A stretch of DNA of 31,222 nucleotides from assembly GCA_003486645.1 (NCBI GenBank), contig DNGI01000519.1:9818-41039 (forward strand), given 5' to 3'. Of the stretch, positions 3,287 to 18,336 are shown in pieces. This DNA is from Cyanobacteria bacterium UBA11370. Lineage in GTDB: Bacteria; Cyanobacteriota; Cyanobacteriia; Cyanobacteriales; Coleofasciculaceae. The notes beneath the pieces were generated by a model, which saw only the letters and a list, made by a program, of their open reading frames with translations, was not told where the DNA came from and did no database searches. Position numbers and translations under genes: made by a program. Positions within the stretch are counted from its first letter, which is position 1, and each line of letters opens with the position of its first letter.

Positions 3287-3898
3287 CTAGGCAACAAGAG
3301 ACTGAACGAGAATTCGCGTCAGTGGCTCTAAGTCATCAGGAACTCGATAACTATCCAAACCTTGTTCAATGTGTTTTGCTGCTCGATTGAGCCGCCCAAA
3401 CTGCCAGATACTTCCAGTTGTAACAGCACCGATTAGAGTAGATTGTGGTGGAGTTTTTTCCCACTGATCAAGGGCAATCAATTCGGCTGCAAGTTGGGTA
3501 AAACCATAAGTCAAATCTTCTCGCTTTGCCTCAATTACTAAAATCTCTGTTTGAGTTCTCAAAAGATAATCTAAGTAACCTTGTAGTTGCTCTGTAACTT
3601 TTAAAGGATACTCAATTCTTAGTTGAGCTTTGGTATAGTGAACTAAATCCAAAACTACTTGCGAGATCAAAACTTCTCGTCGAGAGGTTTCACTGGTAAG
3701 GCTGACATAAGGCAGAACTTCTTCAATACGCGATCGCCGTTCTTCTAAGCGATCTAATTCCCCAGGATACTGAGGTAGGTTGAGTCGATTTCGTTCCAGT
3801 GTATAGCCAAATTCAGTAACCAGATCATCAGGCTCGATCTGGAGTTCAAAAATTTTACTGAACGTATAAGGTTGATTGGGGTTTAGTAGTTTCGACAT
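3287..3898 (-). CDS. PD-(D/E)XK nuclease-like protein embedded in the cas operon
   Basis: A 203-aa protein between cas10d (75-bp gap) and csc2 (33-bp gap), same strand, with AGGAG 9 nt before ATG 3898. The residues suggest a restriction-endonuclease-like fold: D110 in QGYLDYLL, then E123-A-K125 in VIEAKRED after a beta-strand, then Q135 in FTQLAAEL on the next helix. That is the D...ExK plus Q order of PD-(D/E)XK enzymes. It has no helicase or DNA-recognition domain. Such proteins are common in cyanobacteria as unknowns. It is not a standard type I-D component; position suggests co-expression with the effector. Cas4 is also PD-(D/E)XK, but the cysteine cluster of Cas4 is absent here. Confidence 0.75.
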   Translation of the reverse strand: MSKLLNPNQPYTFSKIFELQIEPDDLVTEFGYTLERNRLNLPQYPGELDRLEERRSRIEEVLPYVSLTSETSRREVLISQVVLDLVHYTKAQLRIEYPLKVTEQLQGYLDYLLRTQTEILVIEAKREDLTYGFTQLAAELIALDQWEKTPPQSTLIGAVTTGSIWQFGRLNRAAKHIEQGLDSYRVPDDLEPLTRILVQSLVA

Positions 3899-3973: not shown

Positions 3974-4465
3974 TCAAAAGTTATTTTCCTTACTTATTAA
4001 GTTGTTTTCTTCAGAACTTTCTTCCTCTTGTTCTTTATTAGCACGATTTTCTTTGTCATCTTCTAAGCGATACAAAAACTCACAGGTATCGCGGATTAGG
4101 TTAATTTGTCGCCCTGCTAAACGAGCGCGATCGCAGGCAAAAGATTTCTCAAATACTTCCACCACAAAGTAGCGAGCAAATTCCAAGATAGCTTCCCGCT
4201 CTTCTTCTCGATTTTTAAATATCCAACGTCCCTCTGCGGTAGAGGCATGAACTCGATCCATAAGCTTAAATACTTCAGCAGCAACAGCCATGAATAACGC
4301 TTCTCCCTGAAAGCTTGGATCGGCTTCTAGGATTGTTTTCGCAGCAATATCAATCGGCTTCAATACAGCATTTGCTTTGGGATTATATCGCCTATTAGCT
4401 CGGTAAAACTTGCGATACAATTCTGTTAATTGTTTAGGATGATTTAAGTTGGATTCTTCTTGCAC
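3974..4465 (-). CDS. cas11d: Cas11d small subunit from an internal start in cas10d
   Basis: Inside cas10d and in frame, GTG 4465 is preceded by GGAGGA (4473-4478) with a 7-nt gap, an almost ideal Shine-Dalgarno. Initiation here gives a 163-aa, largely helical protein starting MQEESNLNHPKQ (V read as M), about the size of a Cascade small subunit. It is known for type I-D that the small subunit Cas11d is translated from within the 3' end of cas10d; this site fits that rule. The acidic tail (EQEEESSEENN) is shared with Cas10d. The start is inferred from sequence only. Confidence 0.65.
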   Translation of the reverse strand: MQEESNLNHPKQLTELYRKFYRANRRYNPKANAVLKPIDIAAKTILEADPSFQGEALFMAVAAEVFKLMDRVHASTAEGRWIFKNREEEREAILEFARYFVVEVFEKSFACDRARLAGRQINLIRDTCEFLYRLEDDKENRANKEQEEESSEENNLISKENNF

Positions 4466-7411
4466 AATTAATTCCTCCAAATTAGGATTGTATTTAGCAT
4501 AAGGATCAAAGCAGGGGTAAAATTGATAAGCATAAAGCTTAATTTTATTCAAGCTAGGAGCCTCGATTTTTTGTTTTCGTACCCACTCATTCAGGTAAGC
4601 AAACACATAAAGAGAACTGGTTTCAAAATCTTTAGCGAGTTCAGTAAATTTACCCCAGTTAGAGTCATAACCCGATTTCCCTTGTCTGGCATTAACATCA
4701 AGATGAATCGCATAAGCAGCGGTTAAAACATTGAGCGGTGCAGGATAAGATTTACCATTTTCTTGCCAACCTTCAAGGATATAGTCGAGACGGAAGCGAT
4801 CGCGCTTTGTCAACACCCGAAATGCTTGCGGCGCACTATCAAGAAATACACTTTCCTCAAACTCTGCGCCATCATTAAATGGGGGAATTGGTGACTCCGA
4901 AACCACCGTTTTCACATCCAAAATCATCGGGAAAGTAAACGCTAACCAGCTAGGCATTACCCAAGATTCTGTATCCGTCCCATCTCGCCCAGGGGGAAGC
5001 GCCATGAAGTAAAATGTTAAAGGCTGGTCTTCTGGATAAGAAAGTTTGAAGGTTCTGTCTTTTCCTGGCTCAATGTTTTCATCAATTAGGAAAGCATCGA
5101 CACTTTGATAACGCTCTCGTTCTAAGTTCGCCTGCAAATCCTTACTGATAAAGTGATTGCGAATACTGGTATCAAAGCGAGTTTGAGCAATACCCGTATA
5201 AGCCTTTTGCAAAAACTTATTCGTTTCTGGCGTAAAGTAATACGTGGGATAAAAATAGAGATAGCGATACTTACCATCCTCAAACTTCTTACCTACTGCT
5301 TGCGTCTGATTCATCAAAATTTGTCTCAGCATCATTTCAATCCCTGCAATACTGGAAATATTACGCTTGGCATTAGAACCGCCTAACATTTGTTTATTGG
5401 TATAAACCTGGGGCGTGAATAAAACTGCTGATTCCATCTGTTCAGTTACACTATAAGGAGAATGGGAAATAGAACATATTAATTGTCGTCCTCGCCCGGA
5501 TTTTTTAGCCAACTGATAGCCTGATAATTCTTGTAGGAAGACTTCAGCAGATGCCGTTTCAAATGTGGCTTTTTGAGGTAACATAATAACTCGCCTTACC
5601 CACAGCCGCAAATCATCCCAACCATCAGGTAATTGGTACTGTTCAACAATCGGTTTAATTAGTTGGGAAATATGCGCGATCGCATCTTCACAAATTTGAC
5701 GAACATCTTCCACATCAGGGTGACTTTGTAGATACTTCGCTGCTAAGTAATACCATTCATAGGGAACGCCACCCGTGTTACCTTTAAGTTTATGCTCCTT
5801 CAAGCTTTCATTAATCCGCTGAATTTCTCGAATTTGGGGTAGGTACTCTGAGAGGTTCCAAAACTTGGCAATCTCATCAACAATATCCAGATGAGGTAAT
5901 CCTGGAAGCTTTTTATCTTTCTTGCGTTCAGCTTCAATTTGATTAACCCGTTCTCCCCAAATTTTGCGACTGATTAAATCTCCAAATTCGGCAATCTGAT
6001 CAATCCGAATATCATCCTTAAAACTAAAGTCATAGTCAGCAGATAAAATTCCCTGTTGCTGAAACTTGATTAAATTATCACTACGGCTTTTAGCAACAGA
6101 ACTTTTGGTAGGACTTAGAATTCTTAGTGTAGCACTAAGAGCGACTTGCATTAAACCAATATCATCAAAGAAAAGATTATAATACTCTGCATACTTCATT
6201 CCCTTACCATCTCTACCAAAACCTGTTTGTCGTAGCCGTAATTGACTAGCACAGAGTTTTTTAATTTTGTTAACAAGCCGCTCTGGTATTTCTTCCACTT
6301 GGATAGAAGGTGCATCACGTCGAGCCAAATAAATTACACCTGTTGGCAGATACAGTAAAGGTTCATAGTAATTAAAATCCTCTGTATTAAGGCTAAGATG
6401 AGCCTCCATCAAAGCATTATTTACAACATTAGTAAGTACTCCTCGGTTCTCTGAGATGCTGTGATATGTAAATTTCAGTTGTCCATCACTAAGGCTATGA
6501 ATTAACTCATTGAGCCTGGTATTTTCTCCATCTTGAGGATGTTTAATAATAGATGCTAACGAATCAGCTAAACAGGTTAAATCAGAGAGACAACCCAGAG
6601 TGCGATCGCGCAATTGTGGATTGAGTCCAAATTCTGAGAAATTCCAATTCGTATCCCATCTTCGTTGAGCGTTATAAGCAACACAAAGCAAGTCATCAAT
6701 GTACTCTTTATATGTCTCTGGATTATCCGGATTAAGAAAACGATCAATTCCTAGCTCAACAGCGATAATCTCAATAATTTCTCTGTGTTCTAGCAAAGAT
6801 AATCCCCGAATCTTGGTATCTTCATCTTTTCCTATATCTTTGTATTTTTGCGGTAATTTGGCAAAGCTGCTGTAGTTAAACTTTTCAAAGTCATGTAAAA
6901 CAAACCCAGCAATAACAATTCGTCGTTCTCGTTCTCGTACCACTCGCTGTAAAGTAGTATTCAGTTTTTCCAACCGTTGCTCAATTAAGTTAGCAGGAAA
7001 TAGTCCATTGAGTAAATGAGTATTCAGAGATTGATCGGCTGCATTGTCCCGCCGTACTTTTGCTTTTCCTTCCGCTTCTCTTTGTTGATCAATTTCATCA
7101 AAAAACTTACCCCCTTTAGCCGTAACACCAATAGCAACTCTGAGCAGATTTGGTAATACATATTCAGCGAAATCATCTATTACCTTATCGCCTGGATTTT
7201 GAGCCTGAATTGCTTCTCGCAATAGCTTGAGCGTGAGTAACTCACGGGATTGAGGTTCGATAGTACGATAACTCGGTTCAAAATCAAACTCTAAATCTTC
7301 ATCTTGCAACCAATCATCATCAGAATCTATCGACAGTTCCCCATCCATATTTTCGACATCAAATAAAGATAGCTGGTTATTTTCTTGAGACTTTTGATTT
7401 TTTTTAGCCAT
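3974..7411 (-). CDS. cas10d: Cas10d (Csc3), large subunit with HD nuclease domain
   Basis: 1145 aa from ATG 7411. A TTG 12 nt upstream (7423) is also open, but GAGG lies at the right distance before the ATG. Cas10d is the hallmark of type I-D and carries the HD nuclease that other type I systems have in Cas3. Seen: a very acidic N-terminus (about 27-46), then an HD-type region with H132 (NTHLL) and H173-D174 in VLHDFEKF. No GGDD palm motif was seen, as expected for Cas10d. The helical C-terminal 163 residues can also be made alone as Cas11d. The upstream nuclease gene ends 16 bp before it, so the two are probably co-transcribed. Confidence 0.93.
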   Translation of the reverse strand: MAKKNQKSQENNQLSLFDVENMDGELSIDSDDDWLQDEDLEFDFEPSYRTIEPQSRELLTLKLLREAIQAQNPGDKVIDDFAEYVLPNLLRVAIGVTAKGGKFFDEIDQQREAEGKAKVRRDNAADQSLNTHLLNGLFPANLIEQRLEKLNTTLQRVVRERERRIVIAGFVLHDFEKFNYSSFAKLPQKYKDIGKDEDTKIRGLSLLEHREIIEIIAVELGIDRFLNPDNPETYKEYIDDLLCVAYNAQRRWDTNWNFSEFGLNPQLRDRTLGCLSDLTCLADSLASIIKHPQDGENTRLNELIHSLSDGQLKFTYHSISENRGVLTNVVNNALMEAHLSLNTEDFNYYEPLLYLPTGVIYLARRDAPSIQVEEIPERLVNKIKKLCASQLRLRQTGFGRDGKGMKYAEYYNLFFDDIGLMQVALSATLRILSPTKSSVAKSRSDNLIKFQQQGILSADYDFSFKDDIRIDQIAEFGDLISRKIWGERVNQIEAERKKDKKLPGLPHLDIVDEIAKFWNLSEYLPQIREIQRINESLKEHKLKGNTGGVPYEWYYLAAKYLQSHPDVEDVRQICEDAIAHISQLIKPIVEQYQLPDGWDDLRLWVRRVIMLPQKATFETASAEVFLQELSGYQLAKKSGRGRQLICSISHSPYSVTEQMESAVLFTPQVYTNKQMLGGSNAKRNISSIAGIEMMLRQILMNQTQAVGKKFEDGKYRYLYFYPTYYFTPETNKFLQKAYTGIAQTRFDTSIRNHFISKDLQANLERERYQSVDAFLIDENIEPGKDRTFKLSYPEDQPLTFYFMALPPGRDGTDTESWVMPSWLAFTFPMILDVKTVVSESPIPPFNDGAEFEESVFLDSAPQAFRVLTKRDRFRLDYILEGWQENGKSYPAPLNVLTAAYAIHLDVNARQGKSGYDSNWGKFTELAKDFETSSLYVFAYLNEWVRKQKIEAPSLNKIKLYAYQFYPCFDPYAKYNPNLEELIVQEESNLNHPKQLTELYRKFYRANRRYNPKANAVLKPIDIAAKTILEADPSFQGEALFMAVAAEVFKLMDRVHASTAEGRWIFKNREEEREAILEFARYFVVEVFEKSFACDRARLAGRQINLIRDTCEFLYRLEDDKENRANKEQEEESSEENNLISKENNF
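4473..4478 (-). promoter_or_regulatory. Internal ribosome binding site for Cas11d
   Basis: GGAGGA on the minus strand, 7 nt before an in-frame GTG. The reading frame here encodes Leu-Glu-Glu, so the site sits inside ordinary coding sequence. It is the best SD-plus-start pair I found in the last third of cas10d. Confidence 0.6.
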
Positions 7412-7427
7412 TGGATACCTCAACTTT

Positions 7428-8435
7428 TTACTCGATTCCTTCTAAAAGCTTGGCTACCTGCTGCGGTGCTGGCAGTTGATTTTTGAGTTCTTGAGGAACT
7501 GTTGAAACTACTTTATAAGTACCTACACCGATAGGTTTATTCGATTCTCTCAGTGCATACTCAACAATTGTTTTCTTTTTAGATTTACACAGAATAATCC
7601 CAATCGCTGGATTTTCATCAGGTAACTTGACTTGTTCATCCAAAGCTGCAAGATAAAACTGCATCTTGCCAACATACTCAGGTAAAAACTTACCAATTTT
7701 TAGTTCTACAGCCACTAAACACTTTAAACGGCGGTGATAGAGTAGAATATCTATAAAATATTCTTCATCCTCAATTTTCAGGCTAAATTGACTCCCCACA
7801 AACGTAAACATTCCACCCATTTCTCTTAAGAAAGGTTCAACCCTTCCCAAAATTGCCTGTTCTAGCTGTCGTTCGTCGTGTTCATCACCTAATTCTAAAA
7901 AGTCAAATGTATATTCATCTTTGACGGCTAGTTTTGCCTGGTTGCGGATTTCTTCTGAGACAGTCTGCTCAAAGTTAGTCTGGTTCAGTAAAGTTTTTTC
8001 ATAAGTTTGATTTTCAATCTGATGAATTAAGACGTTCTTTGTCCAACCAAACTTGCGAGTCATACGGATATAAAACTCTCGTTCTAGGTCATCTTTACAC
8101 TTTTCCAAAATGACCAAATTGTGAGTCCAACCAATTTCTCGCACCAATGGTGCGAGTTTTTGATTTTCAGCATAAGTTTCGTAAAAAAGCCTCATCCGCC
8201 AAAGGTTAGCAGACGAAAATCCACTAATTCCAGGAAACTCAGCCTGTAAATCTTTTGCCAGTTGTTCTACCACCGATTTCCCCCAACTATTTCCCTCCTG
8301 TCGTGTAACAATCATCTTGCCAATGTCCCAATAGAGAGCAATGAGTTCTTTATTGACAGCTTTTAATGCTTCATATTGAGCGGAACGAATGCGCTGTTTT
8401 ACTTCTACTAATAGATGTTTATAATCGTCATTCAT
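7428..8435 (-). CDS. DUF1016 / YhcG-type PD-(D/E)XK nuclease
   Basis: 335 aa from ATG 8435, whose ATGA overlaps the stop of the upstream nucleotidyltransferase gene. A GTG at 8447 is open but less likely. The N-terminal half (about 1-160) is the DUF1016 helical domain (LYWDIGKMIV, FSSANLWRMRLFYETY, IGWTHNLVIL). The C-terminal half is a nuclease domain with D229 (FIDILLYH), E244-L-K246 (VAVELKIG) and Q259. The family is widespread and often near restriction, toxin or defence genes; its biochemical role is poorly known. Here it is 16 bp upstream of cas10d, so it is probably in the cas transcript. All nuclease residues are present, so it should be active. Confidence 0.85.
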   Translation of the reverse strand: MNDDYKHLLVEVKQRIRSAQYEALKAVNKELIALYWDIGKMIVTRQEGNSWGKSVVEQLAKDLQAEFPGISGFSSANLWRMRLFYETYAENQKLAPLVREIGWTHNLVILEKCKDDLEREFYIRMTRKFGWTKNVLIHQIENQTYEKTLLNQTNFEQTVSEEIRNQAKLAVKDEYTFDFLELGDEHDERQLEQAILGRVEPFLREMGGMFTFVGSQFSLKIEDEEYFIDILLYHRRLKCLVAVELKIGKFLPEYVGKMQFYLAALDEQVKLPDENPAIGIILCKSKKKTIVEYALRESNKPIGVGTYKVVSTVPQELKNQLPAPQQVAKLLEGIE

Positions 8436-8884
8436 ACCAAACCCCACTCTTTGAGAAACTTATTAATATTCTGGCGAAGGTTATGCTCTAGATCTTGTAT
8501 TTCCATATCGCTCATCAGAGCTTGCTGCTTAAATTTATCAAACTCACCTGGTTCTTTTTCATAAATAAGCTTGCCATCACGAGCAACAAAGTGAGCAATA
8601 AGAGGTGAAGATCGATTGAGATCGACAACATCAATATTGTCGCTGTTGATGCTAAAAACTTCCTCGATAATTCCAGGCACTTCAAACCATCCAAAACCAC
8701 TATTTTTACAAAATTCTTCTCTAATTTTTTGATCGTAGAGTGCGGCAAAATCCCAGTCACTATTAGCATGGGTATCGCCTCTAGCACGAGAACCAAATAG
8801 AACTAGCATTTTGAGATAAGGTATTTTCTTAGGTAGTTTGGCAGAAAGTACCTTGAGTTCTTCTAATGTGGGTGTTTTAATCAT
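8432..8884 (-). CDS. MNT-domain nucleotidyltransferase, MntA-like
   Basis: A 150-aa protein of the minimal nucleotidyltransferase superfamily. Seen: VLFGSRARGDTHANSDWDF at residues 28-46, with GS (31-32) and the metal-binding D43 and D45; a third acidic residue is likely in NIDVVDL. In HEPN-MNT toxin-antitoxin pairs, MntA modifies and silences the HEPN RNase. No HEPN gene is next to it; its overlapping partner is the DUF1016 nuclease instead. The ATGA overlap implies tight co-translation. It might therefore control that nuclease, or be an orphan antitoxin. There is no clear Shine-Dalgarno before ATG 8884. Confidence 0.85.
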   Translation of the reverse strand: MIKTPTLEELKVLSAKLPKKIPYLKMLVLFGSRARGDTHANSDWDFAALYDQKIREEFCKNSGFGWFEVPGIIEEVFSINSDNIDVVDLNRSSPLIAHFVARDGKLIYEKEPGEFDKFKQQALMSDMEIQDLEHNLRQNINKFLKEWGLV

Positions 8885-9154
8885 TGTTTGAGCATTTGTT
8901 AAGGTTCATCTGATATGTATATGTTTTTGATGGGAGAAAAGGAGAGGGAAGCTTTAATAAGACTAGTGGCTTGAGGTGTGTTCTTGTATTGGCGACTTAA
9001 CCAGCCATTGGCTATCAAGTTTTGATTCATACCAGATGGGGGTAAAGACGATCTACGTTTGAGCTTAACGCCGCAAGCTGCCAAATAAGTTTCCCTCCCT
9101 TGTCACAGACTCTCTGGTTATCCAGAGAAATTCCCGCAGGAGTGGTGAGATGCG
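8885..9154. other. Gap without a supported gene
   Basis: 270 bp between the winged-helix gene and the MNT gene. A 61-codon frame (8899-9084, TTG start) begins LAACGVKLKRR, faintly like the end of a TnpB-type transposase, but it has no ribosome site and an in-frame stop just upstream. I do not call it. A short stem-loop lies at 9111-9128. Confidence 0.4.
9111..9128 (-). terminator. Stem-loop just after the winged-helix gene
   Basis: TCTCTGG-TTAT-CCAGAGA is a perfect 7-bp stem with a 4-nt loop, 27 nt beyond the stop of the 65-aa gene. No T-run follows, so it is more likely a partial attenuator or RNA-stability element between this gene and the nuclease/cas10d genes than a full terminator. Confidence 0.3.
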
Positions 9155-9352
9155 TTATGCTGTCAGCATCCGGTACTCAAATTGGTTGCGAGCAAGTTGC
9201 CGCGTTTCAATTGAGTAGCCTTTCTTGCGAGCTTTAAACACCGTATCTCCGAAGCGAAAGCTAACCTTGCTGGCTAACTCATCGCTTGAATGCCACCGAC
9301 CGTCTTTGAGAACCGCAATCAACCGTTCAAGGTTTGTCGATTTGACAAGCAT
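9155..9352 (-). CDS. 65-aa winged-helix DNA-binding protein
   Basis: A whole-protein winged helix-turn-helix: helix 1 LERLIAVLKDG (8-18), recognition region HSSDELASKVSFRFGDTVFKARKKG (21-45), and wing SIETRQLARNQFEYRML (47-63). ATG 9352 has AGGAG 11 nt upstream. It is a small regulator or DNA-recognition protein with no effector domain. It is the first gene after the divergent-looking control region at 9353-9570, upstream of the MNT, nuclease and cas10d genes on the same strand, so it may be the leader gene of that operon and its regulator. It could equally be a phage-type small HTH carried along. Confidence 0.8.
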   Translation of the reverse strand: MLVKSTNLERLIAVLKDGRWHSSDELASKVSFRFGDTVFKARKKGYSIETRQLARNQFEYRMLTA

Positions 9353-9446
9353 GGTTATTTATACTCCTGTATGTGGAAAATTTTTCAAACAAATCCCTCA
9401 GCCCAAATGCTTATCAATTCTGGGCTTCATTGATTTGCTTAATTTG

Positions 9447-9475
9447 AAACTACTGAATGCGATAGCTCGTGTCAA
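9447..9475 (-). promoter_or_regulatory. Promoter for the winged-helix gene / cas10d group
   Basis: On the minus strand, TTGACA (9475-9470), a 17-nt spacer, then TAGTTT (9452-9447). The -35 box is a perfect consensus. It would start transcription about 90 nt before the 65-aa gene. The -35 box lies inside the protospacer-like match at 9469-9501. Confidence 0.55.
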
Positions 9476-9504
9476 GCAGTTTTATAAGCTCAGATTTATT
9501 CAAC
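9469..9504 (-). promoter_or_regulatory. Protospacer-like site T1 for the mini-array guide
   Basis: Minus strand: GTT (9504-9502, fits the I-D PAM GTN), then GAATAAATCTGAGCTTAT from 9501. Against the first 18 nt of the mini-array spacer it matches 16, with mismatches at positions 7 and 12. A full 33-nt protospacer would run to 9469 and cover the TTGACA box of the leftward promoter. Confidence 0.6.
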
Positions 9505-9530
9505 TAGTTATAAGCGTTGACTTATTCTAC
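9495..9530 (-). promoter_or_regulatory. Protospacer-like site T2 for the mini-array guide
   Basis: Minus strand: GTA (9530-9528, I-D PAM), then GAATAAGTCAACGCTTAT from 9527. It matches spacer positions 1-9 and 13-18 (15 of 18). It covers the TTGACT -35 box of the rightward promoter (9517-9522). T1 and T2 are 26 nt apart in the same orientation. Confidence 0.58.
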
Positions 9531-9545
9531 CCCTTGTGGCATCAT
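9517..9545 (+). promoter_or_regulatory. Candidate promoter for the mini-CRISPR
   Basis: TTGACT (9517-9522), 17 nt, then CATCAT (9540-9545). The -10 box is weak. The expected start near 9552 would place the first repeat about 20 nt into the transcript, with an AT-rich leader-like sequence upstream. Confidence 0.4.
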
Positions 9546-9570
9546 TGTCACAGAGCATCCTAATTGATGC

Positions 9571-9677
9571 TTGGCAGGGATCTCAAATCCCTTTCAGGGA
9601 TTGAAACGAATAAGTCTGGGCTTATTGCCGTAAGCTTCCCTGCAAAATCCACAAAAATCCCTTTCAGGGATAGAAAC
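9571..9677 (+). CRISPR. Degenerate two-repeat mini-CRISPR with one spacer
   Basis: Two repeat units 70 bp apart. The 3' parts are AATCCCTTTCAGGGATTGAAAC (first copy ending 9607) and the same with one change, ...GATAGAAAC (ending 9677). Each holds a 5-bp stem ATCCC-TTTCA-GGGAT and an AUUGAAAC-type 8-nt handle typical of cyanobacterial repeats. If repeats are 37 nt, the spacer is 33 nt (9608-9640). The 5' halves of the two repeats have diverged strongly. The second repeat overlaps the cas3' stop codon by one base. It sits inside the cas locus rather than next to cas1-cas2, which is unusual for an ordinary array. Confidence 0.75.
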
Positions 9678-11860
9678 TAGCCAGCAATCCATATTTCACC
9701 TCCTTGACTCTTCAACGAATAAGCAAGCGTATCTAACAGCAACGCCGACTGACTGAACGCAATAGAATAAGGTGCAACTGCATCATGAAAACTATAGGAG
9801 TCACTAATCGGATAAATTTGAAAGTGCATCGGAAGTCGCAAGCGAGATCGCACCTCCCCCACGGAACGCCGAATTACATAGCAAACTAACGCTTCTTTCT
9901 TCAACCGCTTATTAATCTCACCAATCCAATAATTATCAGGTTGCCAAATCCCAATCCCAGTTAAAACTTGAACCTTCCAAGCATCTGCAATAAAATCCAA
10001 TTTCCCAGCGTAAGTAAACCGCCAATTCAGCCGTTCCTCACGATAATTCCGTAACTGCATAAACGCCAGACAACGCTTAAATCTTCCCTTAGCAATGGGT
10101 TGTCCCATCCGATCAGCAGTTTCCTTGAGAAGTCGCATAAACGCCGCTTCTGTCATCACCTCAATCTCCAAATTACTCAAAATTCCTGGTAAATCGTAAG
10201 TTTTAAATCTATCTACTTCATTAGCTTCCGTTAAATCATAAATCCCAGATTGCAAAGGACTAAACCCTCGGAAACTAGCCGCATCTTCTAAAATAGGATT
10301 CCCCTTATCCTTCCCTGAGAGTTCTTGCCATTCTCCTTCCCATCTCTTAGTAAGACCAAATACCTTTTTCAAGTTAGTATTAAACACGTCTTCGCAAGCA
10401 GCCTTAAATGCCTTTTGACTCCCTTCATACTGCTGTTTAATTGTCTTATGTCCTAACTTCCAACACAGTACCAGCGACTGTACCGCACCCCAGCGAGAAT
10501 AATATCCTGAGAAATCATTAATTCTGCGGTAATTTTCTCGAATTTGCTGGTGAAAAAACGAGCGCTCCCAAACACTATTTTCTTTTAAAGGCGGAGACTC
10601 AACTAAAAACAACCGCCCTACTAAAAAATCTGGTACTAAAGCATAAGCCGTAAAACATTTAAAACTAATATTCTCTCCATTCCGTTCATAACCATCATGT
10701 CGTCCCAGCCTTCCCAACCGCTGAATAAAACTCCCTGCATCCGCTGATTCAAAAATCAGAAAATTAATCTTAAAGTCCACCCCCACATCAATTGTGCTAG
10801 TCCCAATCACTAAATCAGCAAGTAGCGACTGCTCTTTCTCCTGCTTCCCAGATAAACCCGTATTCTCTCCAACTATTAAACCCAATGGCGTTAACAATTC
10901 TCGAAAAAACGGAACCAAACACTTCACCGCCGCAATTGAATTAAGAATAATTGCCCCTTTACTACCTGGATACTCCTGAAAGTGATTCAAAATTAAATCA
11001 CTCGATTCTTTCAGCCATGTTTCTGATGCTTTAGGAGAAGATTCTAAGGAAATGAAATTCAGACTAATTTCCCGTGATACCTGTCGCCATCCTTGTGCTG
11101 CAAGTTGAGAGCATTCATCAGCCGTATCAGGAAATCGATATTTATTCTCCTCAAGTGGGTTAATCTCCTGACACCGAAATCCAGCTATTTTTAATCGCTC
11201 AATTAATTGTTGATTTGGTGTGGCTGATAGAAACAGAAATTTCTTCCGGCGATTAGTTGTTTTAATTAACAGCATGGTGTTAATCACGCTGGCAATTTGC
11301 GGAGCCTGAAAAACATGGAATTCATCAAAAATGAATAAATCGAAATCCTTGTCAATTCGGTTCCACAACTTATCAGGACTATCGCTATGAGTTAAATACT
11401 TTCCCTGATGCAAATAGTGGAAAATGTCTGGATTAGTTAACAGAATTTCTGCTTGACCTGTGCGAGTTGCGATCGCCGCCGCTTTCCCCAAATCCTCATT
11501 TTCCGCATAAATCTCTAATTCTTGCCCGCTGAGTCGCACCACACGCGGCTTAATATCAAGCTTAAATTGTTCAATATATCCCTGAATTTGTATTTCTTGA
11601 TCCCGCGCCAGTTCATTCGTTGGATACAATCCAATCGCACAAAAATCTGTCAATAATGTCTCTAAATAAGCTGCCAAACTTTTGCCATCACCCGTCATGG
11701 CTGTATTAAAAATAACGTCAATATTCGGGTTGCGGATTGCCTCCAATGTTGCTCCTTGATGCCAGGAAAGCGACCAGTTTTTGGGTAATTTTACACCTTT
11801 GGGTATCTCTGTCGCTGGACAGGAGTAAACAGGCTTGAGCGTAATTGTATAATCGGACAT
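9677..11860 (-). CDS. cas3: Cas3' helicase of type I-D (no HD domain)
   Basis: 727 aa from ATG 11860. The frame is open 40 codons further upstream, but that part is unlike Cas3 and overlaps the divergent regulator. It should be recruited after Cascade binds DNA and unwind the target while the HD of Cas10d cuts. Seen: Walker A T56-GDGKS, DEFH 179-182 in FIFDEFHVF, SAT 212-214, and motif VI QRLGRLGRHDG. No HD nuclease domain is present, as expected for type I-D. It is separated from cas10d by the mini-array and three extra genes, and is divergently placed from the WYL regulator. Confidence 0.92.
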   Translation of the reverse strand: MSDYTITLKPVYSCPATEIPKGVKLPKNWSLSWHQGATLEAIRNPNIDVIFNTAMTGDGKSLAAYLETLLTDFCAIGLYPTNELARDQEIQIQGYIEQFKLDIKPRVVRLSGQELEIYAENEDLGKAAAIATRTGQAEILLTNPDIFHYLHQGKYLTHSDSPDKLWNRIDKDFDLFIFDEFHVFQAPQIASVINTMLLIKTTNRRKKFLFLSATPNQQLIERLKIAGFRCQEINPLEENKYRFPDTADECSQLAAQGWRQVSREISLNFISLESSPKASETWLKESSDLILNHFQEYPGSKGAIILNSIAAVKCLVPFFRELLTPLGLIVGENTGLSGKQEKEQSLLADLVIGTSTIDVGVDFKINFLIFESADAGSFIQRLGRLGRHDGYERNGENISFKCFTAYALVPDFLVGRLFLVESPPLKENSVWERSFFHQQIRENYRRINDFSGYYSRWGAVQSLVLCWKLGHKTIKQQYEGSQKAFKAACEDVFNTNLKKVFGLTKRWEGEWQELSGKDKGNPILEDAASFRGFSPLQSGIYDLTEANEVDRFKTYDLPGILSNLEIEVMTEAAFMRLLKETADRMGQPIAKGRFKRCLAFMQLRNYREERLNWRFTYAGKLDFIADAWKVQVLTGIGIWQPDNYWIGEINKRLKKEALVCYVIRRSVGEVRSRLRLPMHFQIYPISDSYSFHDAVAPYSIAFSQSALLLDTLAYSLKSQGGEIWIAG

Positions 11861-11951
11861 ATCCTTAAACAGTGTCCGTAAGTTGTTGTTGATTCCTATA
11901 ATGACACCCAAAATAGAGATTGCCAAGAGATGTACAGATAAAGTGTCCGTA
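11854..11951. promoter_or_regulatory. Operator-like TGTCCG repeats between cas3 and the WYL gene
   Basis: AGTGTCCGTA occurs twice in direct orientation (11871-11880 and 11942-11951), and the inverse CGGACAT lies at 11854-11860, overlapping the cas3 start codon. The first pair forms an inverted repeat CGGACA...TGTCCG. The three copies flank the cas3 promoter and the WYL gene start, which suits an autoregulator binding site. Confidence 0.5.
11898..11926 (-). promoter_or_regulatory. Candidate cas3 promoter
   Basis: On the minus strand, TTGGCA (11926-11921), 17 nt, then CATTAT (11903-11898). The start would be about 30 nt before the cas3 ATG, and an AGTGTCCGTA copy lies between them. On the plus strand TATAAT (11897-11902) is present but has no good -35 partner. 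Confidence 0.4.
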
Positions 11952-11958
11952 TAAATTA

Positions 11959-12825
11959 ATGAGTCGCAAAGGTCAGTCAATTACCCTATCCATCTCAGAA
12001 CGGGACAAAGCCCAACTCGAAGCGATCGCCCTGGAACTGGGTATGATGTGGGGAGAGCGTCCCAACATCTCCAAATTGGTAGAAGCGATCGCCCGTCGTA
12101 AACTTCTAGTCTTTCCTAATAACGACTGGTCAGAAACACGCATCAGGGCGCTAGAACGCTCTATCCGTGCTTTAACTGACATAGGACAGATTGAACAAGC
12201 TAAAATTATTGCCGAGTTGCTTTTAGAACGTAGCGAACTCTCATTGCCCTTACGTGCAGAAATTGAACGCTTTTTAGAAAATCTGCCGCCACCTTGGCGC
12301 TTGCAAATTGACCGCTACATCTTACGTAACCAACCCTTTCAGCTTTCCTATCAAGATGCCGCAGAACGCCTATTCAATTTCACAGTACGCTATGCTAAAG
12401 TTAGACCTCACGATAAACGCCAGTATCTTGATTGTTGGTGCGAGGAAACAGAGGGAAACTCAGACATACCTGAGTTGCAACATAACTGGTGTTTGCGTTT
12501 AGATCACATTCAAGATGCAGCGATAGCACCTATTGCGGGTCGCTGGCTTCCCAATTTGACTCAAATCGAGGTCGAAATGCACCTATTGAGAGGTTTAGCA
12601 TTTGGATACCAAGCGAAACCCGAAGATAGTGCTAATGATTGGCTAGTTGATCAACCACCAGTGCGGCGAGTTGTGCGAAAAGTATCAAGTACTTTCTGGT
12701 TTTTCCGAGAAATTGCACCCTACTGGGAAGATTGTGTAATTATTTCACCGGAAAACGTGCGCGATCGCTTCAAACAAAAACTAATCTCCCTGTGCCAAAA
12801 CTACGATCTCAAAATCCGGGACTAA
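11959..12825 (+). CDS. WYL-domain regulator of the type I-D locus
   Basis: 288 aa from ATG 11959; a TTG at 11920 is open but would overlap the cas3 control region. The N-terminus (SITLSISERDKAQLEAIALE) looks like a ribbon-helix-helix DNA-binding segment. The region from about 140 on is a WYL-type ligand domain (RQYLDCWCEE). A WYL protein next to type I-D cas genes is known from Synechocystis (sll7009), where it lowers crRNA levels. By analogy this is a repressor of the locus, perhaps binding the TGTCCG repeats. Its stop is 3 bp from the stop of the convergent 1541-aa gene. Confidence 0.85.
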   Translation: MSRKGQSITLSISERDKAQLEAIALELGMMWGERPNISKLVEAIARRKLLVFPNNDWSETRIRALERSIRALTDIGQIEQAKIIAELLLERSELSLPLRAEIERFLENLPPPWRLQIDRYILRNQPFQLSYQDAAERLFNFTVRYAKVRPHDKRQYLDCWCEETEGNSDIPELQHNWCLRLDHIQDAAIAPIAGRWLPNLTQIEVEMHLLRGLAFGYQAKPEDSANDWLVDQPPVRRVVRKVSSTFWFFREIAPYWEDCVIISPENVRDRFKQKLISLCQNYDLKIRD

Positions 12826-12828
12826 ACC

Positions 12829-15800
12829 CTACTTCACCCTCGCGCGGAACCGAATAAACCCATAAGAATTCGTGGGTGTACCCGAAGCAGTTGCACGCGG
12901 TAACGTGTTTGGTTTCGTAACCACAGTTATAACGACAGCCCCGTTGCTATTCGTCCCTGAACAAGCAACGGGTGGTTCTTGCCCAGCAGCAAAGAATTCT
13001 CCCCTATCGGCATCAGCCACATTACTCAAATACAGCGTAGGAGTAGTAGGCAAACTAGTAGAATTAAGAGCAAGTCCTATCCCCAAATCTGCTCCCGGTA
13101 AACTCCCATCTGTAGGAGTTGAACGATTAAAAGCGGTGGGAATAAACGTCGTATTTTCGGGGACTAAATCGCAAATACTAACATTCGTAGCATTTCCATC
13201 TCCATTGGAGAGAAAATAGATCGTATATTCTAATTCATCCCCTGGTTGAACAACCCCACCATCAATTACACCCCGCAAGTATGTATTAGCCGGAGTTGGC
13301 CATTTAGAATTATTATCATTTGTAGTATTAGGGTCATCCACAAACTGATTAAAGGGAACTCCATTAATAGCCGTAATGCGTTTAACTAACAACAAATTCG
13401 GGTTAGAAGCAATTGGGATAGTATTCGATCCAATAAAGCTGAGACGTTCAGCATCGCCATTTCCTGTATCATCATCGTCACCCACAATCACCAACACTTG
13501 TTTAATCCGAGGGCTAGCATTATTATCAATAAATCCTACCCAGCGACTGGTCTGGTTGCCACAGCCTAACTGGGAGGTAGCGCTGGTACTACAGTTGGCT
13601 TGATTAAGGGGTTGGGGATTGGGAGTACTGCTAGTACCGTTATCCAGCGTTTGCGGAGTAATGGCAATATCTTGTCCAATTCGATTCCCGCTAGCATCCA
13701 ACAAGCGCAAATAAGCAGGTGCGCCGCCACCTTGGGTTCGGGTTTCTAAATCGCCAAACCATGCCCCAAAGGATTTTACAGGTTGGGCAAAGGTGAATCG
13801 CACAGCGTTGCGTCTACTATCGCTATTTCCTCCGGTGTGATTCCAGAAGCCGGGTTGATCGGCACTATTGTAGAGACTGCTAGGGCGAGGAGAACTATCT
13901 TGCAAGGAATTATTGAAGGCTAGGGCAAAGCCTGAAGCTGTGGCATTCCCTCCATTACAGGTAGTTGGGGTGGTGAAGGGGACTTGCACAGATTCTACAG
14001 TGGTAGTAATTGCTGTATTACTGTTAGGTTCTCTGTAGGTAAAATTGGTGGTACTACCGGGTGCAGAATTAGCACCGAACCAAGGTTCCACAGTTCCTGT
14101 AGTGGAACCCCCCGCAGCGGTACGCCAAGTGTCATCGAGTTGATCAGTAAGCGATCGCAGATTAGTAGGAATAGAACCTGAAACAGACGTATTGCCAACT
14201 TCTGTACTGATGAAAGGTTGAATTGTGGGATCGTTTGTACCTCCCCCCAGATTACAAAAACCAGCAGCAACATCAAACCCAAAATTTTGACCTGTTACCG
14301 AACTCCCAGAAACAGTAATAGCTAAATTATTGGGTGTGCCTAATGTAAATCCCGTCGGAATATCGGTATCGGTACTATCAACTTGGATTTTATAATTACC
14401 GTTAGTAATACCTGTAAAGGTATATTGACCGCTAGCATTGGTAGTCGTGGTTTGAATAACAGTTGTACCCGTACTATCTAATAATTTGAGAGTAATATTT
14501 GCAGGTAGTGTCGGTTCTGTAGCATCCAAATCATCACCACCGTCGCTATCTTGATAAAGAGTACCGGAGATACTGAAACTGGTGCAGGCTGGCACAATTT
14601 GACTCACACCTTTTGGATCGGCGGCGATCGCTGCAAAACTACCGGAGTAGTATTGTACGTCCAAAGTGCTTTGATTTTTCAGAAATAGCCGTATTGCCTT
14701 GCTTGTATCGTCCCCTCCGGTGACATTATTGTTATAAATACCACCAAATTGCACGTCATATCCCGCCGGAGGTGAGGCAATTTGTTCGATCCAAGTAGGA
14801 TTGTGGACTTCATAGGCAGAAACTTGGCTATTTTTCCAAGCTATGCGTTCTGCTCCTGCGTTAGTAGCTGCTGCTGGTGAGCCAAGAGTAGTACCCATAC
14901 CATCAATGTCTGCAAATTGCATAACATAATTACCCGATATGGGTGTTGTCGTGCCTGATTGATAAAACTTGAATTGGAAGTCTGTGCTTGAAGCCGCAGG
15001 GGGTCTCAGATTGACGCTACCCGTTGCTGGTGGTTGAGCATTCAAATCAGCACGGTCGAAATTGGTGTTTTGAGAGGCAGTCACGATGACATCAAGGAGT
15101 GTCCCATCTGGTAAAGTACCAGCGCGTAAAATTTTGTGATTTCTTTGATCGATCCTCTCAAACCACCGCAAATTTAAAGCCGTAAAAACTTCAGTCGGAT
15201 TTGCCGAACAAGCTGTGGGTAAAGCACGCTTGTGAACAAGTAGGCGATAGTCCTCTACTTCCCCATTGGGTGCTAGACCGATGGCACTGTTGGCTTGACC
15301 CGTTTGGCTTGTAAAGCGAAAGCGAGCGTAGGTAGCACCCGCGATCACAGTCTTAGGAACTGTAAACGTTAAGGTATTATCACCACCAGAGACAGCGCGA
15401 TCGCTAACGATTTGTTCACCAGCACCGAAACTTCCATCTTGGTTAAAGTCAATCCAAGCATTCAGATAACCCCCTGTTGAAGCTTTGACAGTAATAGTGT
15501 TGGTTTGATCGACTGCTGTATCCCCTTGAAGTAGATTCGCTATTCCCAGGGAGGGGTTGAAGGTGACACCATCGTTGTCGCTGGTAGTGATGGCATTACC
15601 GAAGGTGACGGGTTGACCATCTGCATCGGCAGTGACGCTATTACCAAGATAAACACCATTGACAATAGTATGTCTTGCGCCATCCTCAGCTAACGTAGTT
15701 TTGTAGGAGTTAGTTGTAGTATTTGCTGGAACTGAGTTAGGAGCTTCACCAAAGTCTGTAACGGTCGAATCAAAGCCAAAGTTTTGATTTGTAATTGGAC

Positions 15801-17512: not shown

Positions 17513-17664
17513 AACGTTATAAGTGACGAGTAATAGTGATCGCCCTCTATGTCTATGCAATCCCAAGACTGCACTGCCTTATAATTCCCTGTGATGAAAG
17601 AATAATATCTAGGTGCGATCGCGCAATTTATTAATCTTGCTGCTGGTAATCTGCGTAATTTCCC

Positions 17665-17695
17665 TGTAGAGACGTTGCATTGCAACGTCTCTACA
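17665..17695. repeat. REP palindrome 1
   Basis: A perfect 15-bp inverted repeat TGTAGAGACGTTGCA with one central base. It overlaps the 3' end of the RAYT gene and provides that gene's TAG stop codon. Confidence 0.9.
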
Positions 17696-18278
17696 TCCAT
17701 AAATTGGTGGGATTGTGTCTATCTAATTCCCATTTGGTTGGATTGTTGGCAATGTAGTCTCGAATTCGGTTCAAAGAACCATCTGCACGAATAATGTGTT
17801 CATAAAATCGGGGTTGCCACGCAAAATGGTCATAACCGTTTTGGTGACACCAATAGCTAACCGCAGATTTATATGAACGCATGATCGTCCCCAACGATCC
17901 TGCCTGTGGCGATATATTAGACATGAATTGATTTCGTGTAGAGACGTTGCATTGCAACGTCTCTACATTGGGTGGGCGATCGCGGTTAACCTGATGGGGG
18001 CGATCAATAACAATAATGCCGTGTACATGATTTGGCATAATTACATAGCCATTGATGTAGGTATGTTCAAAATGGTTTAGAATATCGATCCAAAACCACT
18101 GGGCAATTTCCCCAATAGCTGAAAGCTGCACCTGCCCTTCAACAATATTCCCGAAAAAATGGGTGCGATCACGGGTACAAATAGTGACGAAATACCAACC
18201 GTTAGTGGCATAATCTTGATTCGGTAAACGGGTGGATTCAACCCGGTACTTACCCTTAAATTTAGGTTGTGTCATCAT
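17691..18278 (-). CDS. rayt: RAYT (REP-associated tyrosine transposase)
   Basis: 195 aa, of the Y1/HUH transposase group related to IS200 TnpA, thought to move REP palindromes as single strands. Seen: N-terminal GWYFVTICTRDR (27-38), the HUH motif H84-V-H86 in MPNHVHGIIVI, and C-terminal QPRFYEHIIRADGSLNRIRDYIANNPTKW with candidate catalytic tyrosines Y159 and Y175. Residues 105-114 (VETLQCNVST) are encoded by a complete REP palindrome lying in frame between the HUH and C-terminal parts. The TAG stop also comes from a REP. ATG 18278 has AGGA 5 nt upstream. It sits between two surface-protein genes on the same strand. Confidence 0.9.
   Translation of the reverse strand: MMTQPKFKGKYRVESTRLPNQDYATNGWYFVTICTRDRTHFFGNIVEGQVQLSAIGEIAQWFWIDILNHFEHTYINGYVIMPNHVHGIIVIDRPHQVNRDRPPNVETLQCNVSTRNQFMSNISPQAGSLGTIMRSYKSAVSYWCHQNGYDHFAWQPRFYEHIIRADGSLNRIRDYIANNPTKWELDRHNPTNLWM
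17937..17967. repeat. REP palindrome 2, inside the RAYT gene
   Basis: The same 31-bp palindrome as REP 1. It lies wholly within the RAYT coding sequence and is translated as VETLQCNVST without stop or frameshift. Confidence 0.9.
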
Positions 18279-18306
18279 TACAATCCTTATTCTCAGGAAT
18301 CATCAT

Positions 18307-18336
18307 TGTAGAGACGTTGCAATGCAACGTCTCTAC
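18307..18336. repeat. REP palindrome 3
   Basis: TGTAGAGACGTTGCA and its inverse, lacking the last A. It lies 29 bp upstream of the RAYT start and contains the TAG stop codon of the 1259-aa barrel gene. Confidence 0.9.

Follow-up and report, generated by a model that had tools for sequence, protein, structure and literature searches.

A conserved degenerate mini-array in cyanobacterial type I-D CRISPR loci carries a candidate regulatory guide for a neighbouring small gene

Beside the cas3' gene of a cyanobacterial type I-D CRISPR locus lies a degenerate mini-array (9586-9677) with a conserved guide. Its matches are PAM-flanked sites in the region of the predicted promoters of a divergent small gene and of the array and, in addition, a PAM-less site opposite the predicted transcript of the small gene. 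From these matches we consider it highly probable that the guide directs the type I-D Cascade to repress both the small gene and the guide's own promoter. The position of the array, the guide, its GT-flanked targets, the mismatches spaced at six nucleotides, the covariation of guide and target and the linkage of guide and gene are read directly from the loci compared. We further think it rather probable, with less assurance, that one natural I-D guide serves on two nucleic acids, such that a PAM with a match of 16-17 nt would shut a promoter without cutting it and a PAM-less match of nearly full length would read the mRNA made from it, the whole forming an exchangeable cassette.

Loci and searches

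The window, by which we mean the whole stretch of 31,222 nucleotides that was analysed, was compared with relatives found through cas3' in overlapping samples of 147, 388 and 388 genomes and in 26 named loci. The 226 loci fetched consist of 166 with a cas3' end and then a further 60, of which 58 have this end; the 224 loci with an end correspond to 216 distinct ones. Exact duplicates (spacer plus 120 nt) were dropped and near relatives were retained, and related genomes are non-independent observations. Arrays were detected with the single fixed pattern GGGA[T/C]TGAAAN, allowing one substitution, between -180 and -40 from the cas3' end, and the loci that fail this pattern (56/166, then 18/58) were excluded from the target counts.

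In the best-match test, the best 16-nt match of each spacer was taken from the 250 nt upstream irrespective of PAM, with swapped spacers as the control. Both hold-out tests were written down before their loci were fetched, and the second hold-out set comes mostly from other cyanobacterial orders. Position-wise identities were computed over distinct GT pairs, numbering 35 in the discovery set, 39 in hold-out 1 and 35 in hold-out 2.

The locus and its mini-array

Profile searches and reading of the open reading frames identify the window as a cyanobacterial type I-D locus, in which cas10d/csc3, csc2, csc1, a separate cas3' and cas6 are all present. The gene order is cas6, csc1, csc2, a 203-aa gene, cas10d, a DUF1016/YhcG nuclease, an MntA-like nucleotidyltransferase, a 65-aa gene and the two-repeat mini-array (Table 1), and ORFs resembling cas4, cas1 and cas2 were recognised left of the window by inspection rather than by profile search. 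The genome assembly measures 7.1 Mb and is about 89% complete. Its regular immune arrays, with 32 and 31 copies of the full 37-nt repeat (e.g. GTTGAAATCAGCTAAAATCCCTATCAGGGATTGAAAC), lie on two other contigs. The mini-array differs from an ordinary immune array in having one spacer, degenerate repeats and a conserved position, and in its layout, a one-spacer degenerate array beside a presumed target gene, it corresponds to the CreA type. An Rfam scan of the window returned no family at gathering scores, and a DNA similarity search of a plasmid collection with 8400-9720 recovered the nucleotidyltransferase gene alone, in two records.

Table 1. Features of the locus, in coordinates of the window
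Feature	Position	Strand	Remarks
cas10d	3974-7423	-	downstream of the small gene; the block with nuclease and nucleotidyltransferase spans 3974..8884
DUF1016/YhcG nuclease	7428-8447	-	downstream of the small gene
MntA-like nucleotidyltransferase	8432-8884	-	downstream of the small gene
Conserved element around the mRNA-type target	8944..9097	.	closed by GAGGGAAGCT (8944-8953) and AGTTTCCCTC (9088-9097)
mRNA-type target	9051..9082	-	predicted leftward transcript complementary to the guide, 22/32; ACG before the plus-strand copy, no GT PAM
Divergent small gene, 65 aa, family F2	9155..9352	-	winged-helix fold predicted; presumed guide-controlled cargo
Predicted promoter of the 65-aa gene	9447..9475	-	TTGACA (9475-9470), 17 nt, TAGTTT (9452-9447)
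T1	9484..9504	-	PAM GTT (9504-9502), protospacer 9501-9484; just upstream of the TTGACA of the leftward promoter
T2	9510..9530	-	PAM GTA (9530-9528), protospacer 9527-9510; over the TTGACT of the array's own predicted promoter
Predicted mini-array promoter	9517..9545	+	TTGACT-17-CATCAT; 9/12 matches
Closing stem around repeat 1 and guide	9574..9643	+	GCAGGGA (9574-9580) / TCCCTGC (9637-9643)
Degenerate repeat 1	9586..9607	+	Cas6-type hairpin ATCCCTTTCAGGGAT and 5' handle ATTGAAAC; 3' part only of the genome's 37-nt repeat
Spacer / guide region	9608..9654	+	begins GAATAAGTCTGGGCTTAT
Degenerate repeat 2	9655..9677	+	last base shared with the cas3' stop codon; same position in many relatives
cas3' helicase	9677..11980	-	TIGR03158, E 6.6e-117; convergent with the mini-array; anchor for finding relatives

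Repeat 1 ends in ...AGGGATTGAAAC, its final base being 9607. Positions 1 to about 17 of the guide that follows match the DNA targets, and positions 4-29 match the mRNA-type site. Of the 216 distinct cyanobacterial I-D loci, 143 have the mini-array at the stop codon of cas3'; in the other 73, all with a located cas3' end, repeat 1 was absent by the fixed pattern, and several loci that fail the pattern hold repeat 2 only, or remnants. Repeat 1 stands at a fixed distance in 110 of 166 loci with a cas3' C-terminus and in 40 of 58 in the further set. The spacers vary widely and belong to many different sequence classes. Additional copies of repeat 1 to the left of the main array are not a general feature (2 candidates in 103).

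The arms of the closing stem covary, with a locus's own arms scoring 18.4 versus 14.2 for swapped ones; 41 of 103 loci reach the 5% level or better, and the median locus stands at 12%. The fold of the window RNA includes this stem (z -2.3; 3 of 200 shuffles equally good). By inspection, a distant cas3' group has lost repeat 2, and the repeat, the guide and the stem are what is left.

Two DNA targets in the window

Two minus-strand sites upstream of the array match the beginning of the guide. On re-reading the sequence we find them as an earlier note, made from the letters of the window, had described them: T1 lies behind GTT and matches from 9501 at 16 of 18 positions, and T2 lies behind GTA and matches from 9527 at 15 of 18, positions 1-9 included. 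The mismatches are at guide positions 7 and 12 in T1 and at 10, 11 and 12 in T2. The flank preceding the array's own copy of the spacer is AAC, again as that note had it. Across the assembly, T1, T2 and the array itself are the only sites within two mismatches of GTNGAATANGTCTGNGCTTAT, and three other matches have 3 mismatches; the reversed pattern of the same search gave 7 matches versus 6 real ones.

T1 had also been placed over the TTGACA box of the small gene's promoter. The 18-nt match in fact stops 8 nt before this box (9475-9470), which would be covered only by the footprint of a full-length Cascade. The placement of T2 over the TTGACT box (9517-9522) of the array's predicted promoter holds; T2 further overlaps a TAGAAT in leftward orientation (9529-9524). 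The TTGACA box of the 65-aa gene (TGTCAA on the plus strand) was missed by a generic promoter scan and is present in 10 of 10 aligned relatives; consensus calls for the window's class give TTGACA and, some 17 nt further on, -10 boxes mostly of the TAG type, the whole oriented towards the small gene. The region holds three promoter-like sites against 1.5 expected, and the predicted array promoter is thus weak if taken alone. In 10 aligned relatives of the window's class a second GT-flanked site lies 25-32 nt from the first. Across loci the PAM at the best sites is GTT or GTC, plus one GTA in hold-out 2, and the GTA of T2 in the window is unusual.

Guide and DNA target change together across loci

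The earlier note had proposed that spacer and T1/T2 sites be followed through related genomes, where they should change together while the PAM is kept, and this is what we observe. In the discovery set, 39 of the 52 arrays have their best match behind GT; among 2214 swapped combinations the share is 5.9%. The proportions are 41/51 in hold-out 1 (swapped, 280/4539 or 6.2%) and 35/40 in hold-out 2 (swapped, 396/4711 or 8.4%), and over all distinct arrays the best upstream match is behind GT in 115 of 143, with swapped spacers at about 6-8%. GT is missing at the best site in 28 of these 143; four of the five misses in hold-out 2 had the mRNA-type site as the best match in the interval searched. 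When a GT-flanked seed site is sought within 300 nt, it is found in 90 of 103 arrays, representing 38 seed classes, versus 239 of 9044 swapped combinations; 36 of the 103 have two or more such sites and 13 have none.

Position-wise comparison of guide and target reveals two weakly matched positions. Identity in the discovery, hold-out 1 and hold-out 2 sets, respectively, is.37,.21 and.31 at position 6 and.26,.26 and.34 at position 12, while over the three sets it ranges from.91 to 1.0 at positions 1-5, from.86 to 1.0 at 7-9 and from.69 to.92 at 13-16, and fades past 17. The mismatches thus gather at 6 and 12, which is where Cascade pairing predicts them. A PAM-flanked partial target in a neighbouring predicted promoter, with positions 6 and 12 free, is characteristic of the CreA type.

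Individual loci illustrate the range. On the plasmid of Picosynechococcus PCC 7117, a cultured strain with an F2 cassette and the same genome as our discovery locus L082, both sites fit, and the plasmid locus of Dolichospermum UHCC 0315A, which is outside the sets, has a 16/16 DNA target behind GTC and no RNA-type site. The plasmid locus of Anabaena sp. 90, also outside the sets, has the array, and a clear target was not found; Stanieria PCC 7437 (L075) has neither site, and in Pseudanabaena galeata the array was not found.

The small gene and its cassette

The AlphaFold2 model of the 65-aa protein (pLDDT 85) has the order H-H-H-E-E. Its best Foldseek matches are mostly winged-helix regulators, together with some ribosomal and other proteins, a resemblance at the level of the fold, and no match in the PDB was found at E 0.001 or below. 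Reading leftward, the first ORF assignable to a recurrent family is, in 88 of 103 loci, a small gene from one of six families (F2, F5, F7, F9, F10, F14) that are unlinked by blastp, and in the other 15 of the 103 the first recognised leftward gene lies outside these six. F2 is winged-helix, F5 coiled-coil-like, and F9 contains a RAMA domain (E 4e-9). The proteins of F7 (about 63 aa) carry QL.LF in 16/16 cases and QL.L.L[FGY] in 15/16, QL.LF being present in 31 of 435 other ORFs; we take both motifs to be sliding-clamp binders. KilA-N is absent from the Pfam matches of the six family representatives, one for each family. Toxin-antitoxin-like genes (MNT, HepT-like, DUF433/DUF5615, YhcG) occupy the space between the small gene and cas10d across loci, in varying combinations.

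We observed that the guide tracks the divergent small gene, not cas3'. At similar cas3' relatedness, guide identity is.63-.85 between loci with the same small-gene family and.28-.38 between loci with different ones; the partial correlation of guide with small-gene family is.63, a value reached by 0 of 500 permutations; and loci whose cas3' ends are 98-99% identical carry different small genes and different guides. Among 160 loci, 96 have both the array and a small gene, 43 have neither, 14 have the array only and 7 the gene only. As cas3' remains in place and the guide, its targets and the small gene move as a group, we would most aptly describe the unit as a CRISPR-repressed cassette that can be exchanged within the I-D locus.

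A PAM-less site opposite the predicted transcript

A near-copy of the spacer (at least 21/32) occurs elsewhere in 57 of 103 loci, compared with 6 of 433 for swapped spacers. In five of these 57 loci the matches are on the opposite strand and are T1-type targets. The plus-strand near-copies lie opposite the small gene's predicted leftward transcript, and 0 of 54 stand behind GT. Relative to the coding region the site is downstream in 28/28 F2 loci and upstream in 11/14 F7 and 3/3 F10 loci. The count of 54 of 103 and the breakdown by family used a phase-weighted selection; the phase test itself rests on sets chosen by plain identity (48; 23).

In the window, the mRNA-type site mismatches the guide at positions 1, 2, 3, 6, 9, 12, 18, 19, 24 and 30. 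Over the near-copies identity is.32,.34,.16,.28 and.12 at positions 6, 12, 18, 24 and 30, respectively, and positions 1-3 (.36-.52), 8 (.48) and 21 (.56) are also relaxed. The 48 distinct pairs selected by plain identity show an identity of.24 at multiples of six versus.76-.96 in the other phases, and of their 333 mismatches at positions 4-30, 182 are at multiples of six, compared with 62 under uniform placement and a maximum of 85 in 2000 draws. In the phase-weighted set the six-nucleotide pattern is present in each family. As predicted before its loci were fetched, hold-out 2 has the site in 16/17 F2 and 6/6 F7 loci, and its 23 mRNA-type sites, of which 0 stand behind GT, have an identity of.26 at multiples of six versus.90 at other positions.

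The site is not universal, since it is absent from F9 (present in 0/11 loci and then in 0/3 of hold-out 2), from most of F5 (2/21 by plain identity and 0/2 in hold-out 2) and from most loci without an assigned family (4/15, then 1/12 in hold-out 2). Where it is present, the simplest reading is that Cascade would pair its guide with the RNA of the small gene at this PAM-less site, because neutral decay of a duplicated spacer would leave no six-base pattern and a shared short promoter target would leave positions 19-29 unconstrained. According to the accessible text of PMC9123187, type I-D Cascade has an affinity of about 11 nM for ssRNA, whichever of the tested flanks is present, whereas on dsDNA it requires a PAM, and dsDNA binding behind AAC was undetectable. 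The choice of substrate by I-D Cascade is called open in the portions available to us of the same paper and of a review (PMC10212523).

Proposed mechanism and alternatives

We hypothesize that the mini-array is transcribed and cut by Cas6 to yield a crRNA-like RNA, which would begin with AUUGAAAC-GAAUAAG; at the boundary, the cut RNA would have a handle ending in GAAAU and then AAAUACGUCUG. Loaded with this guide, Cascade would use the PAM and some 16 guide positions to bind at T1 and T2 and block the promoters, the match presumably being too short for destruction. Because of its matches to the neighbouring small gene, in the promoter region and in the predicted transcript, the guide would likely lead the complex to silence this gene rather than attack a virus. 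The same complex would bind the mRNA of the small gene through guide positions 4-29 at the PAM-less site, which would itself escape dsDNA binding because Cascade needs GTN on dsDNA and no set flank on ssRNA. Most likely, this step would form a second layer of silencing that mops up leaked transcript. Loss of Cascade, its inhibition or its full occupation by immune crRNAs would remove both layers and allow production of the small protein.

The earlier note had weighed a regulatory guide of the CreA/CreR kind against a protein operator, and the joint change of spacer and target together with the mismatches at positions 6 and 12 supports the former. An operator reading would make T1, T2 and the spacer copies of a protein-binding dyad (AATAAG-N6-CTTAT), recognised for instance by the 65-aa winged-helix protein or a WYL-type protein; the dyad is indeed present in the window and some relatives, 7 of 10 aligned relatives have GCGATAGCT in the stretch that separates the -35 box from the -10 box, and the 65-aa protein has the predicted winged-helix fold. 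At a threshold of 5/6 or better at the AATAAG-N6-CTTATT spacing, however, the dyad that the note had described in the window recurs in only 9 of 90 arrays with a target and 5 of 38 seed classes, and an operator predicts neither the joint change over 38 seed classes with GT kept nor the mismatches at 6 and 12. We therefore hold this explanation to be very improbable: the covariation refutes an operator as the cause of the spacer match, although one could lie elsewhere in the promoter. That the main output is instead autoregulation of cas genes, with T1 in control of one operon comprising the small gene, the accessory genes and cas10d, and the small gene being a bystander or a cas regulator, seems unlikely to us. 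The small gene does head a co-directional series whose end is cas10d-csc2-csc1-cas6, and CreR guides of other types are described as repressors of cas promoters in the accessible text of PMC12737573. Against this, it is the small gene that the guide follows, not cas3', the 43 of 160 loci without array and small gene keep cas3', with cas10d usually visible where the flank is long enough, and the gap that follows the F2 gene mostly measures 180-330 nt in 33 relatives of the window's class (270 nt in the window, with a conserved element of its own inside). More plausible, if still short of an even chance, is that the cassette serves addiction or acts as an anti-CRISPR alarm in the manner of CreTA or CrePA, with a small toxic protein that would be freed upon loss or inhibition of Cascade. 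The divergent layout and the pairing at 1-5 and 7-11 are as in CreTA, several different small proteins occupy the same slot, and the QL.LF motifs of F7, if they bind the sliding clamp as we assume, offer a plausible route to toxicity; yet the model of the F2 protein resembles a DNA-binding regulator, not a known toxin, and in 7 of 160 loci a small gene is present and no array was recognised, so that loss of the guide is not always lethal.

The PAM-less site invites two further readings. Rather than an mRNA target it could be a plus-strand transcription unit, either a paralogous guide gene in decay or a decoy, as its handle-like flank and its closing stem, which resemble the main guide RNA in the same orientation, might suggest; the G-U pairs of the outer stem of the element (10 on the minus strand versus 5 on the plus strand) are too few to settle the strand. 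A paralogous guide should, however, be constrained to about position 17 only, and the six-nucleotide pattern runs to position 30, with the seed positions 1-3 relaxed. Moreover, of the 150 differences at constrained positions, 48 fit wobble pairing between guide and mRNA, 23 are transitions of the opposite kind and the remainder are transversions. When the second conserved element was treated as an independent guide in 11 registers over 22 loci, GT-flanked targets appeared in at most four loci at any register, and in those four the sites were the main guide's own targets. We thus judge the paralogous guide or decoy to be quite improbable. It is also doubtful, though less so, that the site acts as a sponge, whereby an expressed transcript would titrate the guide complex and keep the promoter open as a bistable switch. 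The location of the site either before or after the coding region would suit a sponge, which has no need to block translation, but titrating Cascade would presumably demand a high output of transcript. Silencing is also conceivable, given that Cas7d of the type I-D Cascade cleaves ssDNA according to the accessible text of PMC9123187 and that cleavage of single-stranded targets belongs to a published model as given in the available part of PMC10212523. A second layer of silencing is the reading that we retain for this site.

Relation to known systems

In the literature we searched, which was largely non-subscription and partly accessible, and which left uncovered the 2023 survey of crRNA-like elements that may list I-D arrays, we found no I-D mini-array guide, no RNA target of a regulatory type I guide, no mRNA-type site and no swapping of guide-gene cassettes. 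Two-repeat mini-arrays partly complementary to cas and cargo promoters were reportedly surveyed by Shmakov et al. in 2023 in many type I systems, and we know of no mRNA site from that survey. The word 'mini' does not occur in the available text of the I-D review PMC10212523, and a term search of PMC9458426 gave no match. The non-immune guides CreA, CreR and CrePA are known from other CRISPR types (PMC12737573, accessible text), and type I-D is reported to be the commonest cyanobacterial type I system, with 63.2% of genomes in one survey (PMC11903412, accessible text).

If our proposal is true, the mRNA-type site would be the first RNA that a type I Cascade targets natively, ssRNA binding by this complex would acquire a role, and non-immune guide regulation, known from other types, would extend to I-D with small proteins as cargos. 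A PAM-dependent DNA site and a PAM-less RNA-type site within one cassette would make substrate choice by Cascade testable in cultured strains, and the cargos (a winged-helix protein, a RAMA-domain protein and proteins with clamp-like motifs) could be tested as toxins or regulators.

The pSYSA plasmid of Synechocystis PCC 6803 likewise has a type I-D effector and a WYL gene beside cas3'; its cas3' and cas10d, in contrast, are 13 nt apart and therefore leave no space for a cassette, which may be why this model system never showed one. The likeness to CreR (types I and V-A) is that a crRNA-like RNA and the effector act as a repressor within a cas locus (PMC12737573, accessible text). CreR acts on cas promoters, whereas the targets described here are at the predicted promoters of the small gene and of the guide itself, the small gene lying upstream of cas10d on the same strand. 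T1 might in addition control the nuclease and cas10d genes that follow the small gene. CrePA shares a protein gene repressed by Cascade with a crRNA-like guide, an arrangement that in our case is predicted from sequence; its protein toxin is repressed by the crRNA-like antitoxin and released by anti-CRISPRs (PMC12737573), and CreP typically has KilA-N, unlike our six family representatives. The closest likeness in layout and pairing is to CreA/CreTA, with a degenerate mini-array, a PAM-flanked partial match at a neighbouring promoter and positions 6 and 12 free; pairing of Haloarcula CreA at 1-5 and 7-11 was shown experimentally (PMC8501985, accessible text). In contrast to CreA/CreTA, the cyanobacterial loci have a type I-D effector, a GTN PAM and pairing that usually extends to position 16-17, their cargo is a small protein gene from one of several families where CreT is an RNA toxin, and they possess an extra PAM-less site of nearly full length opposite the predicted transcript.

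Conserved elements around the mini-array

In the predicted promoter of the small gene, which diverges from the one-spacer mini-array, we observed that GCGATAGCT lies between the -35 and -10 boxes and is identical in seven of the ten aligned relatives; it is possibly a protein operator. The mRNA-type site, a PAM-less near-copy of the guide opposite the predicted small-gene transcript, is present at 54 of 103 loci, and at 44 of these 54 sites the three bases preceding the plus-strand copy are ANT; this flank is conserved on the RNA side and may be related to the handle. Three related type I-D loci that lack the first repeat of the mini-array (L087, L029 and L102) carry apparent recombinants between the main spacer and the mRNA-type site, and the small gene is absent; their sequences look like natural deletions of the cassette by such recombination.

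Features of the window
Feature	Position	Strand	Remark
Interval with GCGATAGCT	9453-9475	+
Toxin-antitoxin-like genes	7428-8884		small gene-cas10d interval
203-aa gene	3287-3898	-	between cas10d and csc2
246-nt direct repeat (88%)	14272-14517, 15769-16014		both copies within 1541-aa gene
37-nt palindromic repeat, GTAGAGACGTTGCATTGCAACGTCTCTAC core	17660-17696, 17932-17968, 18302-18338		three copies

Neighbouring genes and repeats

The palindromic repeats surround a 195-aa gene with a weak match to IS200-like transposases. The 1541-aa gene, which has DUF11, SdrD-B and GEVED domains, likely encodes a surface protein. In the window and in relatives, the interval from the small gene to cas10d holds inserted toxin-antitoxin-like genes (MNT/HepT-like, DUF433/DUF5615, YhcG nuclease), whose combination varies by locus. 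For the 203-aa gene, a search of NCBIfam gave no match and the only hit in Pfam, the N-terminal domain of HsdR, was below threshold; in Pseudanabaena galeata an annotated HsdR-N gene adjoins cas10d. Within the small proteins of family F7 (L010, L016, L051 and other F7 loci), the motifs QL.LF and QLEL[DN]LF recur, QL.LF being found in 16 of 16 F7 proteins versus 31 of 435 other ORFs; we take these to be bacterial sliding-clamp binding motifs.
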